Source: Candidatus Tachikawaea gelatinosa (GTDB taxonomy: Bacteria; Pseudomonadota; Gammaproteobacteria; Enterobacterales; Enterobacteriaceae). Taken from it: a DNA stretch of 64,000 bases. This document shows, one piece after another, positions 11,660-58,536 of this stretch (the stretch's first letter is position 1; every line of letters begins with the position of its first letter). A program made the position numbers and the translations under genes. The stretch covers positions 218,001 to 282,000 of the forward strand of contig NZ_AP014521.1 of assembly GCF_000828815.1 (NCBI RefSeq). The letters are read 5' to 3'. The notes below the pieces were generated by a model. It searched no databases. It was not told the origin of the DNA and saw nothing but the letters and a program-made list of their open reading frames with translations.

Positions 11660-13013
11660 TTTTATATTCCTGTAGTTTATTTATAATTTCTTCCATGTGA
11701 GATTTTCTTGAACCTTTAATTAAAATTGTTGTTTCTTGATTTTTTTCTAAAATATATATTAATTTTTTAAAAATTTTTTCTTTACTTGTACAATACTCAT
11801 TATTAGTATTTGTAATATACTTTCCATATATTCCAGTACTAATTATTTTATGAATCTTTGATTTTCTTAAAAGATCAGATATTTTAGAATAAATATTTTT
11901 AGTAAATTTTCCTAATTCAAAAATATCTCCAATTACGATAACTTGATACCCTGAACATCTAGATAAAAAATCAATTGCTGCTTTAAAAGAACCATAATTT
12001 GCGTTATATGTATCATCTATTAATAATTGGTTATATGATAATTGAATTGGAAAAAGACGACCAGGTAGATAACGTATTTTTTTTATACCTTGTTGAACAT
12101 CTAATAAAGATAATCCTATAGATATAATTACTGCAGTTGTAGCAACTGTATTAATAATATTATATATACCTAAATTTGGTAAAAATATGTTAATTTTTCC
12201 TTTTGGTGTATGTACAGTAAAATTACTATTTTTAACATTTATTTTTATATTACTTGCCCAAAAACTAATTTTTTTTTTGAGATGTAGAGAAAAAAAAATA
12301 ATATTTTTTTCTTTTAATTGATTTTTCCAGATTTTTAAATATTTAATATTAGAATTAATAATAGCTGTTCCTTTTTTTTTTAATCCAAGAATTAGTTTTC
12401 CTTTTTCTTTTGCAATTCCTTTTAAGGATTTAAACCCATGTAGATGAGCAGCTTCAATATTATTAATTAATATCACATCTGCAGGGAAAAATAATTTTGT
12501 GGATTTATAAATTTCGCCTAATTTATTTGCACCTATTTCAATCACTATATATTTATGTTTTTTTTTTAATTTTAATAAAGTTAATGATATACCGATATAA
12601 TTATTAAAATTTTTTTCAGTATAAAGAATATTATCTCGTTTTTTTAAAATGGCAACAATCATTTCTTTAATAGAAGTTTTTCCAGAAGATCCAGTAATAG
12701 CAATTACTTTTGCTTGAGATTGCTTTCTAAACCAGTGAGCAATTTTTCCAAGTGCTATGTAAGTATCATAAACAATAATTTGTGGTATTGAACAATTTTT
12801 TATTTCTTTATGAACTAGTATTGCATTTACTTGTTTCAAAAACATATTATTAATGAACGTATGAGCGTCAAAATTTTTTCCAACTAATGCAATAAATAAA
12901 CTGTTTCTTACTATTTTTCTAGTATCTGTTATAATATTATCTAGTACTAAATTTTTTCCAATTAATTTACCATAAGTCACAGTAGATAAAGCTTTTAAAG
13001 AAAAAGAAGTCAT
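11616..13013 (-). CDS. murF: UDP-MurNAc-tripeptide--D-alanyl-D-alanine ligase MurF
   Basis: MurF adds the D-Ala-D-Ala dipeptide (made here by DdlA) to UDP-MurNAc-tripeptide, completing the pentapeptide precursor. The 465 residues exceed the E. coli length (about 452). The ATP loop ITGSSGKTSIKEM is at about 107-119, DDTYNANYGSFKAA in the central domain, and IGDIFELGKF and ILIKGSRKSHMEEII in the C-terminal domain. Beyond HMEEIINKLQEY, where E. coli MurF ends a few residues later, this protein carries about 15 extra residues reading into mraY. This suggests loss of the original stop codon. The start overlaps the end of murE by 4 bases. Confidence 0.97.
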   Translation of the reverse strand: MTSFSLKALSTVTYGKLIGKNLVLDNIITDTRKIVRNSLFIALVGKNFDAHTFINNMFLKQVNAILVHKEIKNCSIPQIIVYDTYIALGKIAHWFRKQSQAKVIAITGSSGKTSIKEMIVAILKKRDNILYTEKNFNNYIGISLTLLKLKKKHKYIVIEIGANKLGEIYKSTKLFFPADVILINNIEAAHLHGFKSLKGIAKEKGKLILGLKKKGTAIINSNIKYLKIWKNQLKEKNIIFFSLHLKKKISFWASNIKINVKNSNFTVHTPKGKINIFLPNLGIYNIINTVATTAVIISIGLSLLDVQQGIKKIRYLPGRLFPIQLSYNQLLIDDTYNANYGSFKAAIDFLSRCSGYQVIVIGDIFELGKFTKNIYSKISDLLRKSKIHKIISTGIYGKYITNTNNEYCTSKEKIFKKLIYILEKNQETTILIKGSRKSHMEEIINKLQEYKNVYMVSKKIFNIVF

Positions 13014-14502
13014 TGTTTTATTCCTAAAATGTTTTGAACAATTATTAAATCTGAATAATCAACATATTTGTTATTAATTATTTGATAATTTTCATGTCCT
13101 TTTCCAGCTATAAGAATAATATCTTCTTTTTTTGCAGAAAAAATAGCATATTTAATTGCATTTTTCCTATCAAAAATAATTGATATTTTTTTAAAAATTT
13201 TTATTTCGCTGATAATATCATTTACAATATCAATTGATTTTTCTCTTCTCGGGTTATCATCAGTTATTATTATTTTGTCAGAAAATTTTTCTGCTATTAT
13301 ACCCATGATAGCTCTTTTTTCTTTATCACGTTCTCCACCACATCCAAAAACACACCAAATTTTTCCTTTACAAATATCTTTTAAATTTTTTAATACTTTT
13401 TCTAACGCTTTAGGATTATGTGCATAATCTACTATAACGGTAGGCTTATTTAATAATTGAAACTTTTGCATTCTTCCTAAAGGTAATTTTAGTTGCTTAG
13501 TATAAATAAGCAATTTTTTTAATGGAAAACCTATAACTAATAAAGTAGTAAGAGCAAGAACTATGTTAGTTATATTAAATGTTCCAAACAATTTACTTTT
13601 TATAGTGCCTGGACCCCAACTAGAATTAAAATTAATATCAGTACTATTTTTTTTAATTTTTATTGAAAGAACTGTCAGAAATCTTTTATTAAGAATAGGA
13701 TTCAATTGTTTATTTATATATACACTGACTGCTTCAGGTATTTTTTTAAGCCATTTTCTTCCTATTTCATCATCTGCGTTAATTATTTTATGTTGAACGG
13801 TATGTCGAGAAAACAATAACCATTTAGCTGCTTCATAATTTTTTATATTTTTATGATAGTCAAGATGTTCGTGAGTTAAATTACTAAAAACAGCAGCTAA
13901 AAAATTTAAAGATAATACTCTATGTTGTATTAAACCATGTGAAGAAACTTCCATTACTACATTTTTTACTTTTTTCTTTAAGAAGTAATGTAAAAATTTT
14001 TGTATATCTATTGCAGAATCTGTAGTATTTTTTGAAGTTAATATTTTATGATTATATATCCCGTTTCCTATAGTACTAATTATTGCAGTTTTTTCATTTA
14101 TTAAATACATCCATTGAGCTATTAAATACGTAATAGTGGTCTTTCCATTAGTTCCTGTAATACCAATAACTCTTAAGTTTCTATCCGGATAGTTATAATA
14201 CATTTTAGATAAAACAGATAATTTTTTTTTTAAATTAGTTACATAGATAATTGGGACAAAGCAATTTTTATTTTGTAAATAATTGCAGTTATTAAGTTTT
14301 TTTTTTCTGCGATTACTGCAACCGCACCATTTTTTATAGCTTCTGAAATATAATTACGTCCATCATTTATTTCTCCTAGAATTGCTAAAAATAAATTACC
14401 TGGTCGAACATTTCTACTATCTGTTTCTAAACGATTAAAGCTAATATCTGGTGCAGATATTTTTAAAGGGAGAAGAAATTGTTGAAGATTATAGTTTTTC
14501 AT
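13010..14502 (-). CDS. murE: UDP-MurNAc-L-Ala-D-Glu--meso-diaminopimelate ligase MurE, frameshifted at a poly(A) tract
   Basis: MurE adds meso-diaminopimelate to the peptidoglycan precursor. The gene reads as two frames. Codons from the ATG at 14502 give the N-terminal domain (MKNYNLQQFLLPLKIS to VAVIAEKK). The frame breaks at a run of ten A in the coding strand (T-run 14297-14306). One extra A gives an uninterrupted continuation, LNNCNYLQNKNCFVPIIYV then NLKKKLSVLSKMYYNYP, which aligns with the E. coli GVPVIYLSQLNERLSAL region. The rest is intact: GITGTNGKTTITYL loop, HEHLDYH, SSWGPG, and the meso-DAP specificity motif DDNPR. The repaired protein would be 497 residues against about 495 in E. 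coli. Because MurE is indispensable for a cell that keeps all other mur genes, I infer that it still works through RNA polymerase slippage. A homopolymer sequencing error is the alternative. Confidence 0.9.
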
Positions 14503-34400: not shown

Positions 34401-35064
34401 ATGAATGAAAAAAATTGGGGGTATTTTTTTTCGTTAGAAAAAAAAAAAATATTTCAAAAATATTTTTATTTTTCTTAACAAAGAACTTTCTCTAGGAAAA
34501 ACAATTTATCCTAAAAAAAATGATATCTTCAATGCTTTTAAATTTACACCATTTGAAAAAATTAAAGTTGTCATTATTGGTCAAGATCCTTATTATCATT
34601 ATAATCAAGCCCATGGATTAGCATTTTCAGTTTTACCTACGTATAAACCTATTCCAGCATCTTTAAAAAATATTTATAAAGAAATAAAAAATAATTTTAA
34701 TTATGTAAACGTTCCTAATAATGGATATTTAAAAAAATGGGCAGATCAGGGAATATTATTATTAAACAGTGTTTTGACAGTGGAATCAGGTAAACCAAAT
34801 TCTCATAAAAATATTGGATGGGAAATTTTTACAAACACAATAATTAAAATAATTAATCATTATAAAAAAAAAGTTATTTTTGTTTTATGGGGTAACTATG
34901 CAAAAAGAAAAGAAAAAATAATAGATAATACTCAGCATTTTTTATTAAAATCGTCGCATCCTTCTCCTTTTTCAGCAAATCATGGATTTTTTGGTTGTGA
35001 ACATTTTATAAAAATCAATACATTACTTAAAAAATTAGGAAAAAAACCTATTCAATGGTTTTAA
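34401..35064 (+). pseudogene. ung: Uracil-DNA glycosylase Ung, frameshifted at a poly(A) tract
   Basis: Ung removes uracil from DNA. The ATG at 34401 follows an AAAGG ribosome-binding site and gives MNEKNWGYFFSLEKKK. The frame is then broken at a run of twelve A (34438-34449). One A fewer gives KKYFKNIFIFLNKELSLGK then TIYPKKNDIFNAFKF, which aligns with E. coli Ung. The repaired protein would be 220 residues (E. coli about 229). Later motifs hold up: HPSPFSANHGFFGCEHF and LLLNSVLTVESG. The catalytic-loop motif is altered: GQDPYYHYNQAHG where E. coli has GQDPYHGPGQAHG. The aspartate is kept but the following histidine is shifted or replaced. The gene may be rescued by transcriptional slippage or may be decaying. 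Confidence 0.8.
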
Positions 35065-35180: not shown

Positions 35181-35765
35181 TTATTCAGATACAGAAACAA
35201 CTGCCGGTCGTAATAAGCGTCCATTAAGTTTGTAACCTTTTTGAATAACTTTAATAATTTGATTTGACAACTTTGATTCAGATTTTATTACTGATATTGC
35301 TTGATGTATCTCTGGATTAAAAGGTACATTTTCTTCATTAATTATGCTTATGCCAAATTTGTTTATAGTTTTAATAAAAGCTTTTAATGTTAATTCAATT
35401 CCTTCAATCATTGATTTTAGTTGAACATTATTTTTATCAGATATTTCTAAAGCACGTTCAAGACTGTCAATAACAGGTAATAGATCATGAGCGAATTTTT
35501 CTAATGCAAATTTGTGTGCTTTTTCTACATTTAATTCACTTCTTCTACGAAGATTTTCGTTTTCTGCTTGAGCTCGTAGTTGTATATCTCTTAAAGATTC
35601 TTGAATTTCTATTAATTCAGATTCCAATTCAAAAATACGTTTTTTATCACTTTTATTTCTTATAGGATTTGAGTTTAATTCTTTATTATTATTATCATGT
35701 TGTGTTTCTTGACAAGAATTTTCTAAGTTTTCTTCATTTATTTTTTTTTTTTTTTGATCATTCAT
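35181..35765 (-). CDS. grpE: Nucleotide exchange factor GrpE
   Basis: GrpE releases ADP from DnaK. The conserved part has a long dimerising helix ([20 protein letters not shown] and on, about 45-100), then [21 protein letters not shown] and the beta-domain with [12 protein letters not shown] and [20 protein letters not shown] place the start at the ATG at 35765 ([10 protein letters not shown]), giving 194 residues. The longer frame begins with GTG and lacks a ribosome-binding site. A run of fifteen A (35741-35755 on the plus strand as T) lies at codons 4-9 and is in frame. It is an obvious slippage site. A near-consensus sigma-32 promoter lies upstream. Confidence 0.97.
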
Positions 35766-43243: not shown

Positions 43244-43900
43244 TTACCTTTCAAAGGGTAACCAATATGTTTTTTTATAGCATAATTTTGCTAGACTCAA
43301 AAAATTTCTTATTAGAATTGGCTGTATATCTTGCATAGTAACTGTATTGTTGAAATCACTAATTTGTGTCATTTTTAATCCATTATATCCACAAGGATTA
43401 ATAAAAGAAAAAGGAGATAAATCCATTTTAACATTTAAAGATAAACCATGCATTGAATATCCTTTACGAATTTTTAGTCCTATTGAGCAGATTTTTTTTT
43501 TTTTAATATAAACACCTGGTGCATTAATTTTAGAAACAGATTTAATATCAAAATATAATAAAGTTGAAATTATAGTGTTCTCTAAAAGAGAAACTAATTG
43601 ACGTATATTAAGATTAATACGTTTTAAATTTAATAAAAAATAAACAATTTGCTGTCCTGGACCATGGTAAGTAATCTTACCTCCACGATCACTTTGTGTT
43701 ACTGGAATATTTTTGATATTTTTAAAATTTTTTTCTTTTATTAAAGATTGACCTGTAGTAAAAATAGATGGATGTTCAAGTAACCAAATCTCATCAGGTG
43801 TATAATTATGACGATTTTCGGTAAAATCATGCATAGCTTGATAACTTACATCCCAAGATAAAAATTTATGTTCACGAACAAAAAGTATATTATTTTTCAA
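43244..43900 (-). CDS. lipB: Octanoyl-ACP:protein N-octanoyltransferase LipB
   Basis: LipB transfers octanoate from acyl-carrier protein to lipoyl domains, providing the substrate for LipA. The 218 residues compare with about 213 in E. coli. DRGGKITYHGPGQQIVYFLLNL is the family signature. The catalytic lysine lies in KKKICSIGLKIRKGYSMHG, and the catalytic cysteine in INPCGYNGLKM. The N-terminal DEIWLLEHPSIFTTGQ is conserved. ybeD, between dacA and lipB in E. coli, is absent, leaving a 92-base A+T spacer. Confidence 0.98.
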   Translation of the reverse strand: MKNNILFVREHKFLSWDVSYQAMHDFTENRHNYTPDEIWLLEHPSIFTTGQSLIKEKNFKNIKNIPVTQSDRGGKITYHGPGQQIVYFLLNLKRINLNIRQLVSLLENTIISTLLYFDIKSVSKINAPGVYIKKKKICSIGLKIRKGYSMHGLSLNVKMDLSPFSFINPCGYNGLKMTQISDFNNTVTMQDIQPILIRNFLSLAKLCYKKTYWLPFER

Positions 43901-55561: not shown

Positions 55562-56587
55562 TTATCTAGCTTTAAATAATTTTTGAATTTTTTCTAATAA
55601 AAAAGATTGTGATTTTTTATCAAATTCAATATCTATCGGTAAAAACCACCAGTTTTTTCGTGCAAAACTTTGACATTTAATTGCATCTTTTTCTGTCATA
55701 ATCAAAGACTCATCATTTTTAATCATTTTGTATAATTCTTTTTTTAAAAAAAAATAATGATCAGGAAATATAATTTTTTTTATAGGAATTACACCATTTT
55801 TTTTTAATATAGAGAAAAAACGATCAGGGTTAGCTATACCAGAAATTGCAACAATTTTGTTTAATTGTTTGGGAAAAACTTTAGATTCATCTATTATATT
55901 TATTGCAAATTTTGTTTTAACCCTCATACATAGTTCTTTTTTTTTAGGAACTCCTTGATTTATAATAACTACATCTACACTTCTTAAACGTTGAGTTCCT
56001 TCTCTCATTAGTTCTAAAGGTAAGAAAGATCTATTTTCAAAACGGTGTATATCATTATTTATCATTAATATTTCAAAATCTCGTGCTAATGCATAATGTT
56101 GTAAACCATCATCCGAAATAATGAGATCGACGTTATGTTTTTTTAAGATTAATTTAACAGCATCAGAACGTTTTGGAGCTACAGCAACTGGTACAGAAGT
56201 TTTTTTAAAAATCAATATTGGTTCATCTCCTACTTCTTGATAAGAAGTATTATTATTTACCAAAATAGGATAATTTTTAGATTTTCCACTATATCCTCTA
56301 GATATTACAGCTACAAAAAATTTTTTTTTCAATATGTTTGTTAACCAAATTACTAGCGGAGTTTTTCCATTTCCACCAACCGTTAAATTACCTATGATAA
56401 TAACTGGAACAGGTGCTTTCCATTTTTTCAACCATCTTTTTTTATAAAGAATACGAATAATATATGTGATTGCCCTATATATTAAACTTAAAGGAAACAG
56501 GAATAAAAAAGAGAATAAACGATGTCTTTTCCAAACCTCATAATTTTTAATTATATTGCATTTTATATAGTTGAGAATATTTGCCAT
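55562..56587 (-). CDS. lpxK: Tetraacyldisaccharide 4'-kinase LpxK
   Basis: LpxK phosphorylates the 4' position of the lipid A disaccharide at the inner membrane. The 341 residues compare with about 328 in E. coli. An N-terminal hydrophobic helix (FLFLFPLSLIYRAITYIIRIL) anchors it. The P-loop is IIGNLTVGGNGKTPLVIWL (about 62-80), with SRGYSGKS, VGDEPILI, ISDDGLQHYALARDFEI and MTEKDAIKC following. The first ATG gives an overlap of 41 bases with the 3' end of msbA and about ten more residues than E. coli, so the real start may be slightly internal at a non-ATG codon. ycaQ, between lpxK and ycaR in E. coli, is absent. Confidence 0.96.
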   Translation of the reverse strand: MANILNYIKCNIIKNYEVWKRHRLFSFLFLFPLSLIYRAITYIIRILYKKRWLKKWKAPVPVIIIGNLTVGGNGKTPLVIWLTNILKKKFFVAVISRGYSGKSKNYPILVNNNTSYQEVGDEPILIFKKTSVPVAVAPKRSDAVKLILKKHNVDLIISDDGLQHYALARDFEILMINNDIHRFENRSFLPLELMREGTQRLRSVDVVIINQGVPKKKELCMRVKTKFAINIIDESKVFPKQLNKIVAISGIANPDRFFSILKKNGVIPIKKIIFPDHYFFLKKELYKMIKNDESLIMTEKDAIKCQSFARKNWWFLPIDIEFDKKSQSFLLEKIQKLFKAR

Positions 56588-58282
56588 TTTTTTTTAATAA
56601 ACTATTATGAGTACCCTTTTCTATAATTAGTCCATCTTCTAAAACTATAATTTCATCAGCTTTTTCAATAGTAGACAATCGATGTGCAATTACTAATAAT
56701 GTACGATTTTTACAAATTTTATTTAAAACTAATTTAATTGAATATTCTGATTCGTTATCAAGAGTTGATGTTGCTTCATCTAGAATTAAAATAGGACATT
56801 TTCTAAATAATGCTCGTGCAATTGCAATACGTTGTTTTTGACCACCTGATAATATTGCTCCATTTTTACCTATAATAGTATCAAAACCATTTTTCATCTT
56901 CTTTATAAAATCTATTGCATGTGCCATTTCTGCTGCTTTTTCAATATCATTACGATTGTATCTTTTATCAAATGCATAAGAAATGTTATTTGCAATTGTA
57001 TCATTAAATAAATAAATATCTTGCGATACCAACGCAAATTGGTTACGTAAATAACGCAATTGATATTTACGTAAATCATAACCGTCTAAAAAAATAGATC
57101 CATTTTTTATATCATAAAAACGGGTTAATAATTTTACTAAAGTGGATTTTCCAGAACCAGATTTCCCAACAAGACCAACCATTTTACCCGGAGATAATTT
57201 TAAATTAATTTTATGTAAAACTGGTGAATTAGATCCCGGATAAGTAAAGTTAACATTATAAAATTCTAAATATCCTTTAGCACACTCAATAACTTTTTTT
57301 CCATTATCATTTTCTTTTTTCTGATCGAGAATAGTAAAGATCGTTTGACAAGAAATCATACCTTTTTGAAATTGAGTATTTATGTTAGTTAAAGATTTTA
57401 AAGGACGCATTAAAGCAATCATACATGAAAATATTACAGTGATTATTCCTGGGGAAAGAGTACATATAATTTTAGGTAAACTAGATATATATAAAATAAA
57501 AGCTAATACTAAAGATAGAATAAATTGTATTATAGGATCAAAAATTGATAATGAAGAAACCAACTTCATATTTTGTTGACGAGTACGATTACTAATTTTT
57601 TCAAATCTTTTTTGTTCTAACTTTTGTCCTCCAAATATTAAAATTTCTTTATGACCTTTTAACATTTCTTCTGTACTATTTGTCACTTGGTCCATATTAT
57701 TTTGCATTTTTTTACTAAAATTACGAAGTTTTTTTGAAAAAAAATGAATAGTTATCAAAACTATAGGAGAAAATAAAAGTAAAATTAAAGAAAGCTTCCA
57801 ACTGTAATAAAACATCGTAATAAATAAAGCAATAATAGAAGTAGTTTCTCTAATTAAAATAATTAAAGCATTAGATGAAGCATCAGCAACTTGTTCTACA
57901 TCATAAGTAACACGTGTTAATAAAGTCCCTATTGATTGCTGATCAAAAAATGCTACAGGTACTTGCATAATATGCTCAAATAAACGACGACGAATAGTCA
58001 TAACAACTTTACTAGAAACCCAAGAAATAGAACAACTAGAAATATAGCTAGTAATTCCTCGAAAAAATATTAAAAAAACAATCTCTAATGATATCCATAA
58101 AATAATTTCATTTTTTTTACTAAATCCATTATCTAAAATTGGTTTTAAAAGTGAAATCAATAAAGTATCACAACCGGCGTTTAATATTAAATTGATTGCA
58201 GCTATAAATAAACCAATTTTATAAGGAGATATAACAGGCCATAATCTCCGAAAAGTTTGGAGAGTAGATTTTTTTTTTTCAT
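56547..58282 (-). CDS. msbA: Lipid A flippase MsbA, frameshifted at a poly(A) tract just after the start
   Basis: MsbA is the homodimeric ABC exporter that flips lipid A-core to the outer leaflet. The in-frame part from about 58265 to 56547 encodes STLQTFRRLWPVISPYK, then ILNAGCDTLLISLLKPILDNGF and the whole rest of MsbA: six helices, Walker [14 protein letters not shown], signature LSGGQKQRIAIARAL, Walker B ILILDEATSTLD and H-loop IAHRLSTIEKADEI. No in-frame ATG exists before this sequence. The ATG at 58282 is followed by a run of eleven A (58269-58279 as T). One more A would place it in frame, giving 578 residues against about 582 in E. coli. A short TTG start at 58160 would delete the first helix. 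I infer slippage rescue. Confidence 0.88.
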
Positions 58283-58536
58283 ACTTTTTTATTAAAAATT
58301 TTTATAGAACATAGTATTATTTTGAATAATTTTAATAAAAGTACTATGAATTTAATAAAGTTATCAATTTTTTCTATACAGTTATTAATAGAGACGCAAT
58401 ATTTTTTATTTTTTATAGAAGAGAGATAACCTAATAAAAAATTAATAATTTTTCATTTGTATCTCATTATCTCTCATAAAAATTATAAACAACATTTTTT
58501 AAAAAAATTATAAATAAATATCTAATAAAATATATT
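58283..58536. other. Spacer between rpsA and msbA at the site of lost ihfB
   Basis: ihfB and ycaI, which lie here in E. coli, are missing. The spacer has a 9-base inverted repeat, GAGAGATAA (58421-58429) and TTATCTCTC (58467-58475), around a long A+T loop. This may form the 3' hairpin of the rpsA transcript. Nothing else is visible. Confidence 0.5.

Follow-up and report, generated by a model that had tools for sequence, protein, structure and literature searches.

Genes that are frameshifted in a poly(A) tract and that undergo transcriptional slippage there have been described in Buchnera and Blochmannia (Tamas et al. 2008 and Wernegreen et al. 2010, as presented in PMC3017870, PMC2831843 and PMC5009743). 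In the Illumina-based genome of B. vafer, which has 153 coding poly(A) runs of at least nine nucleotides, eight such genes were read as candidates for rescue by slippage (PMC3017870), and corrected transcripts have been reported to make up fractions of 12–50% for endosymbiont genes (PMC5009743). A start-proximal A-run is known from Listeria monocytogenes, where changes in the length of the 5′ poly(A) tract of inlA truncate the product early, after 8 amino acids (Orsi et al. 2010, PMC2831843). A third point of comparison is programmed −1 frameshifting on A-runs (dnaX type), which uses the slippery heptamer A AAA AAA.

The msbA locus analysed here lies in a stretch of 64,000 nucleotides (hereafter the window) from Candidatus Tachikawaea gelatinosa, the gut symbiont of urostylidid stinkbugs. 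The window has a GC content of about 25% and falls within a single contig of 708,439 bases; the source is probably the shrunken genome of an insect symbiont. The genus contains one species in the genome set, no genome of the same genus appeared among the relatives in the Enterobacteriaceae, and a search of genome contigs for close relatives gave only Pantoea sp. Brub (60%) and more distant matches. The following features of the locus, all on the minus strand, are needed below.

58280..58282, minus strand: ATG, the start codon of msbA as judged by its position in homologues.
58269..58279, minus strand: A11 tract (T11 on the plus strand), where the frame breaks; one more base would bring the ATG and msbA frames together.
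58202..58282, minus strand: predicted out-of-frame product of an unslipped transcript, 26 codons plus stop.
56547..58268, minus strand: intact reading frame of msbA (573 codons and a stop), with no usable in-frame start at its 5′ end.
58290..58292, minus strand: ATA, upstream of the tract and the only unusual (table-11) start codon that the msbA frame has there.
58158..58160, minus strand: TTG, the first codon of the msbA frame that could be an ordinary alternative start; initiation here would cost 36 conserved residues, helix 1 among them.
55562..56587, minus strand: lpxK, the downstream gene, which overlaps the end of msbA by 41 bases (TIGR00682, 298.4 bits, cut-off 91.95).

On the minus strand the A11 tract is followed by TCTACTCTCC. 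The frame that opens at ATG 58282 reads MKKKNLLSKLFGDYGLLYLLIKLVYL and stops after 26 codons, which bears out the statement of the initial annotation that this ATG is followed by eleven A and by a frame that does not encode MsbA. The msbA frame has TCT 58268 as its first codon and is open for 573 codons (56550–58268). Between the stop codon TAA 58304 and this TCT, its codons are AAA TTT TTA ATA AAA AAG TAT GAA AAA AAA AAA, and there is no ATG, GTG, TTG or CTG among them. The msbA frame scores 925.6 bits against NF008381 (cut-off 867) and 748.4 bits against TIGR02203 (cut-off 602), both of which are equivalog models, and is also identified as MsbA by a search of the organism's own genome. The Walker A, LSGGQ, Walker B and H-loop motifs are all present, and the operon partner lpxK adjoins. 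Profile scores and codon reading thus agree with the earlier claim that the alternative frame is MsbA with its helix 1 (STLQTFRRLWP) and has no ATG, and the tract is, as also claimed, a single A short of joining the two frames.

In 29 relatives, the ATG of MsbA lies 5–8 codons before the motif S-T-x-Q-T-F-R-R-L-W-P, matching the position of ATG 58282. The 36 residues that precede TTG 58160 have a mean identity of 64.7% to the 29 relatives, as against 61–62% elsewhere in MsbA, and the first membrane helix falls within them. The tract therefore sits at the true start of msbA. Translation might instead begin at a non-standard in-frame codon, ATA 58292, or at TTG 58160, as the initial annotation had itself allowed. 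Although both codons are in the msbA frame, ATA is a very weak start codon, ATG 58282 sits where the homologues start, and initiation at TTG would remove a segment that is as conserved as the rest of the protein and carries helix 1, so that TTG is unlikely as a working or long-standing start. We regard this explanation as extremely improbable. Among the positions that are invariant in the 29 relatives, 192 of 212 are kept. Coding constraint thus persists in the frameshifted msbA, although this observation is also compatible with a very recent lesion.

The situation closely resembles that in Buchnera and Blochmannia. The genome is small, AT-rich and rich in runs, as befits a reduced insect symbiont, and msbA carries a single one-base lesion in a run of at least nine A and is otherwise open. 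As in those symbionts, several essential genes are affected, at a similar rate per tract (see below). The case differs from them in that it concerns another symbiont lineage and in that the tract of msbA lies directly behind the start codon. The resemblance to inlA lies in a start-proximal A-run in which a change of length truncates the product early (26 residues in msbA). However, the inlA tract varies between strains by mutation, whereas msbA encodes a conserved housekeeping transporter and is seen in a single consensus sequence.

The same lesion recurs elsewhere in the genome. We surveyed stretches around tracts and added pattern searches, together covering 335 kb of the 708-kb genome. The sample favours long runs and falls short of a census, and the number of genes found is a lower bound. 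Eleven genes are split at A/T runs of 9–12 and are otherwise open: msbA and the ten that follow.

14297..14306, minus strand: A10 (T10 on the plus strand) splitting murE 66 codons in; N-terminal half 14305–14502, C-terminal half 13010–14296.
34438..34449, plus strand: A12 splitting ung 12 codons behind its ATG; open frame 34438–35064 (NF003589, 303 bits, cut-off 223).
L112:992-1002: run splitting tmk.
L076:3907-3915: run splitting coaA.
L076:5374-5382: run splitting birA.
L140:1025-1035: run splitting ispE.
L074:1016-1027: run splitting priA.
L115:1524-1535: run splitting rimM.
L086:1463-1472: T-run splitting lolA.
L081:3279-3288: run splitting mltC.

For five of these genes (murE, tmk, coaA, ispE and priA), the two halves hit the same family, each at the next part of its profile; the halves of murE, for example, match positions 3–64 and 79–491 of NF001123. 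Ten of the eleven breaks are one base short and only that in ung is one base long (two-sided p = 0.012). The broken fraction rises with the length of the A-run: among gene-spanned runs of 8, 9, 10, 11 and 12 nucleotides, 0/111, 2/69, 2/27, 3/14 and 3/11 are broken (runs of 8–9 versus at least 10, Fisher p = 2e-4). Intact runs were counted here from open frames instead of curated genes, and long runs are over-represented in the sample.

Several further candidates were set aside. At L105:991-1001 (minus strand), a frame resembling the C-terminal, uroporphyrinogen methyltransferase-like part of CysG begins near an A11 without a clear start; it was left out of the count because it has no recognisable upstream partner. 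A seeming second msbA-like start tract, in yicC at position 500346 of the genome (G000), belongs to an intact gene with its own upstream ATG. T-run candidates in L114, L116 and L127, A-run candidates in L040 (masked sequence) and small open reading frames in the window were dropped as non-genes.

These results bear on a further proposal of the initial annotation, namely that a tract right behind the start codon makes expression of msbA an on/off function of slippage. The break does lie in the A-tract, and restoration by slippage is the most likely route to protein; the notion of a switch found no support, as at least ten further genes are broken in the same way. Six of them (murE, coaA, tmk, ispE, priA and birA) have the break at least 50 codons inside the gene, so the position of the msbA tract at the start looks incidental. 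Nor would slippage be expected to act as an on/off device, since published slippage gives a graded mixture of transcripts, of the proportions cited above. The related suggestion that the tract sets a low level of the flippase is likewise unsupported, given that the same lesion is found deep inside many other genes. Long A-runs are common here, with hundreds of matches to A10 in the genome. There are 67 sites at which ATG is followed by at least eight A, compared with 27 for a reversed control pattern, an excess that is expected from A-rich gene starts. Only at msbA is the gene frame left without a start. The other genes with such sites are in frame, including rsmB (named from its sequence), which has ATG plus A11, and this argues against the start tract as a switch.

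The pattern of breaks also has to be weighed against the main rival explanation, which has an appreciable if minor chance of being right: that the tract was undercalled in sequencing or assembly, the true tract being in frame and msbA an ordinary intact gene. Homopolymer undercalls would look like the breaks found here, which are confined to long A/T runs, become more frequent as the runs lengthen and, but for one of the 11, lack a single base, and tmk, murE, coaA, ispE and birA, all among the affected genes, are essential in E. coli. On the other hand, most long genic runs are in frame, including the longest in the window, an A15 near the start of grpE (35741–35755, minus strand) and an A13 within lipB (43492–43504, minus strand). 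Furthermore, breakage per coding run of at least nine has much the same rate here (ten A-run genes, with about 125 such runs sampled) as in B. vafer (8/153), whose genome is Illumina-based. In-frame runs of up to A15 and the similar rate in B. vafer speak against undercalling as the sole explanation.

If the tract is real, MsbA could in principle be made from unslipped mRNA by ribosomal −1 frameshifting. The ATG frame reads ATG AAA AAA AAA AAT and thus offers the A AAA AAA heptamer in the zero frame, and a shift of −1 is what would be required, as in frameshifting of the dnaX type. However, unlike in the dnaX type, no stimulator structure above chance lies downstream (z = −0.62), the msbA break falls at codons 2–4, and the arrangement is not common to ung. 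Because the offset of ung is in the other direction, ribosomal −1 slippage cannot serve all of the broken genes, and we consider it very improbable as the source of MsbA.

We lean, with some reserve, towards an ordinary replication-slippage frameshift in an AT-rich endosymbiont that is partly rescued by RNA polymerase inserting A. Replication slippage would alter tract lengths in AT-rich, recombination-poor endosymbiont genomes and would have left the one-base frameshift in the A11 of msbA. RNA polymerase would then insert an extra A in a fraction of transcripts, from which MsbA would be made, and a ribosome slipping back on the same A-run could add to the output, while unslipped transcripts would yield the 26-residue peptide only. 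We infer that the genomic tract is truly A11 and that msbA transcripts are heterogeneous in length. Because the rest of the msbA frame is intact and under constraint, slipped transcripts most likely continue to supply MsbA. In Buchnera, 151 of 157 transcriptional insertions but only 16 of 57 deletions were in homopolymer runs (PMC5574713); with such a bias, the breaks retained in a genome reliant on rescue should be chiefly those that insertion can repair, which is the direction seen. None of the transcription errors that Traverse and Ochman found in the same study restored a frame (PMC5574713), which weighs against a large rescue.

The functional context of MsbA in this organism is unusual. 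The genome contains intact lpxA, lpxB, lpxC and lpxK, along with another intact LpxA-like gene, probably lpxD. No match for WaaA, KdsA, LptD or LptF/G was found in the whole genome; LptD is present in 50 of 60 relatives. MsbA would thus face lipid IVA without Kdo, and it seems to have been kept in the absence of both Kdo and LPS export. One relative with a 0.5-Mb genome (G005) has a match to MsbA (52% identity) without a match to LptD, a possible parallel. The suppressors carried by E. coli strains depleted of Kdo include msbA52, which alters base 52 (codon 18) of msbA (PMC4404585); the proline that corresponds to this position is unchanged here, in RRLWP. Since the Kdo and LPS-export steps, which would normally come next, seem to have been lost, msbA might be a fresh pseudogene on its way out. 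Yet its 573 codons contain neither a stop nor a second frameshift, its motifs are intact and its invariant residues kept, and the lpx genes listed above are likewise intact, so that we hold a dying gene to be highly improbable. A more far-reaching version of the rescue explanation is that breaks stay one base short because RNA polymerase prefers to insert A in long runs, a bias that would shape which lesions survive and that in msbA would dampen export of lipid IVA in a cell without Kdo and Lpt machinery; this we find improbable.

If the breaks are undercalls, about a dozen genes, msbA included, have been wrongly read as broken. Otherwise, with 11 genes in 335 kb, they would add a further lineage to a phenomenon already known from endosymbionts, for which Buchnera and Blochmannia are the best-documented cases. 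The dependence on run length and the 10:1 bias in direction agree with the bias of RNA polymerase towards insertion. Provided that the tracts are real, this genome would be well suited for asking whether errors in transcription determine which frameshifts can be tolerated.
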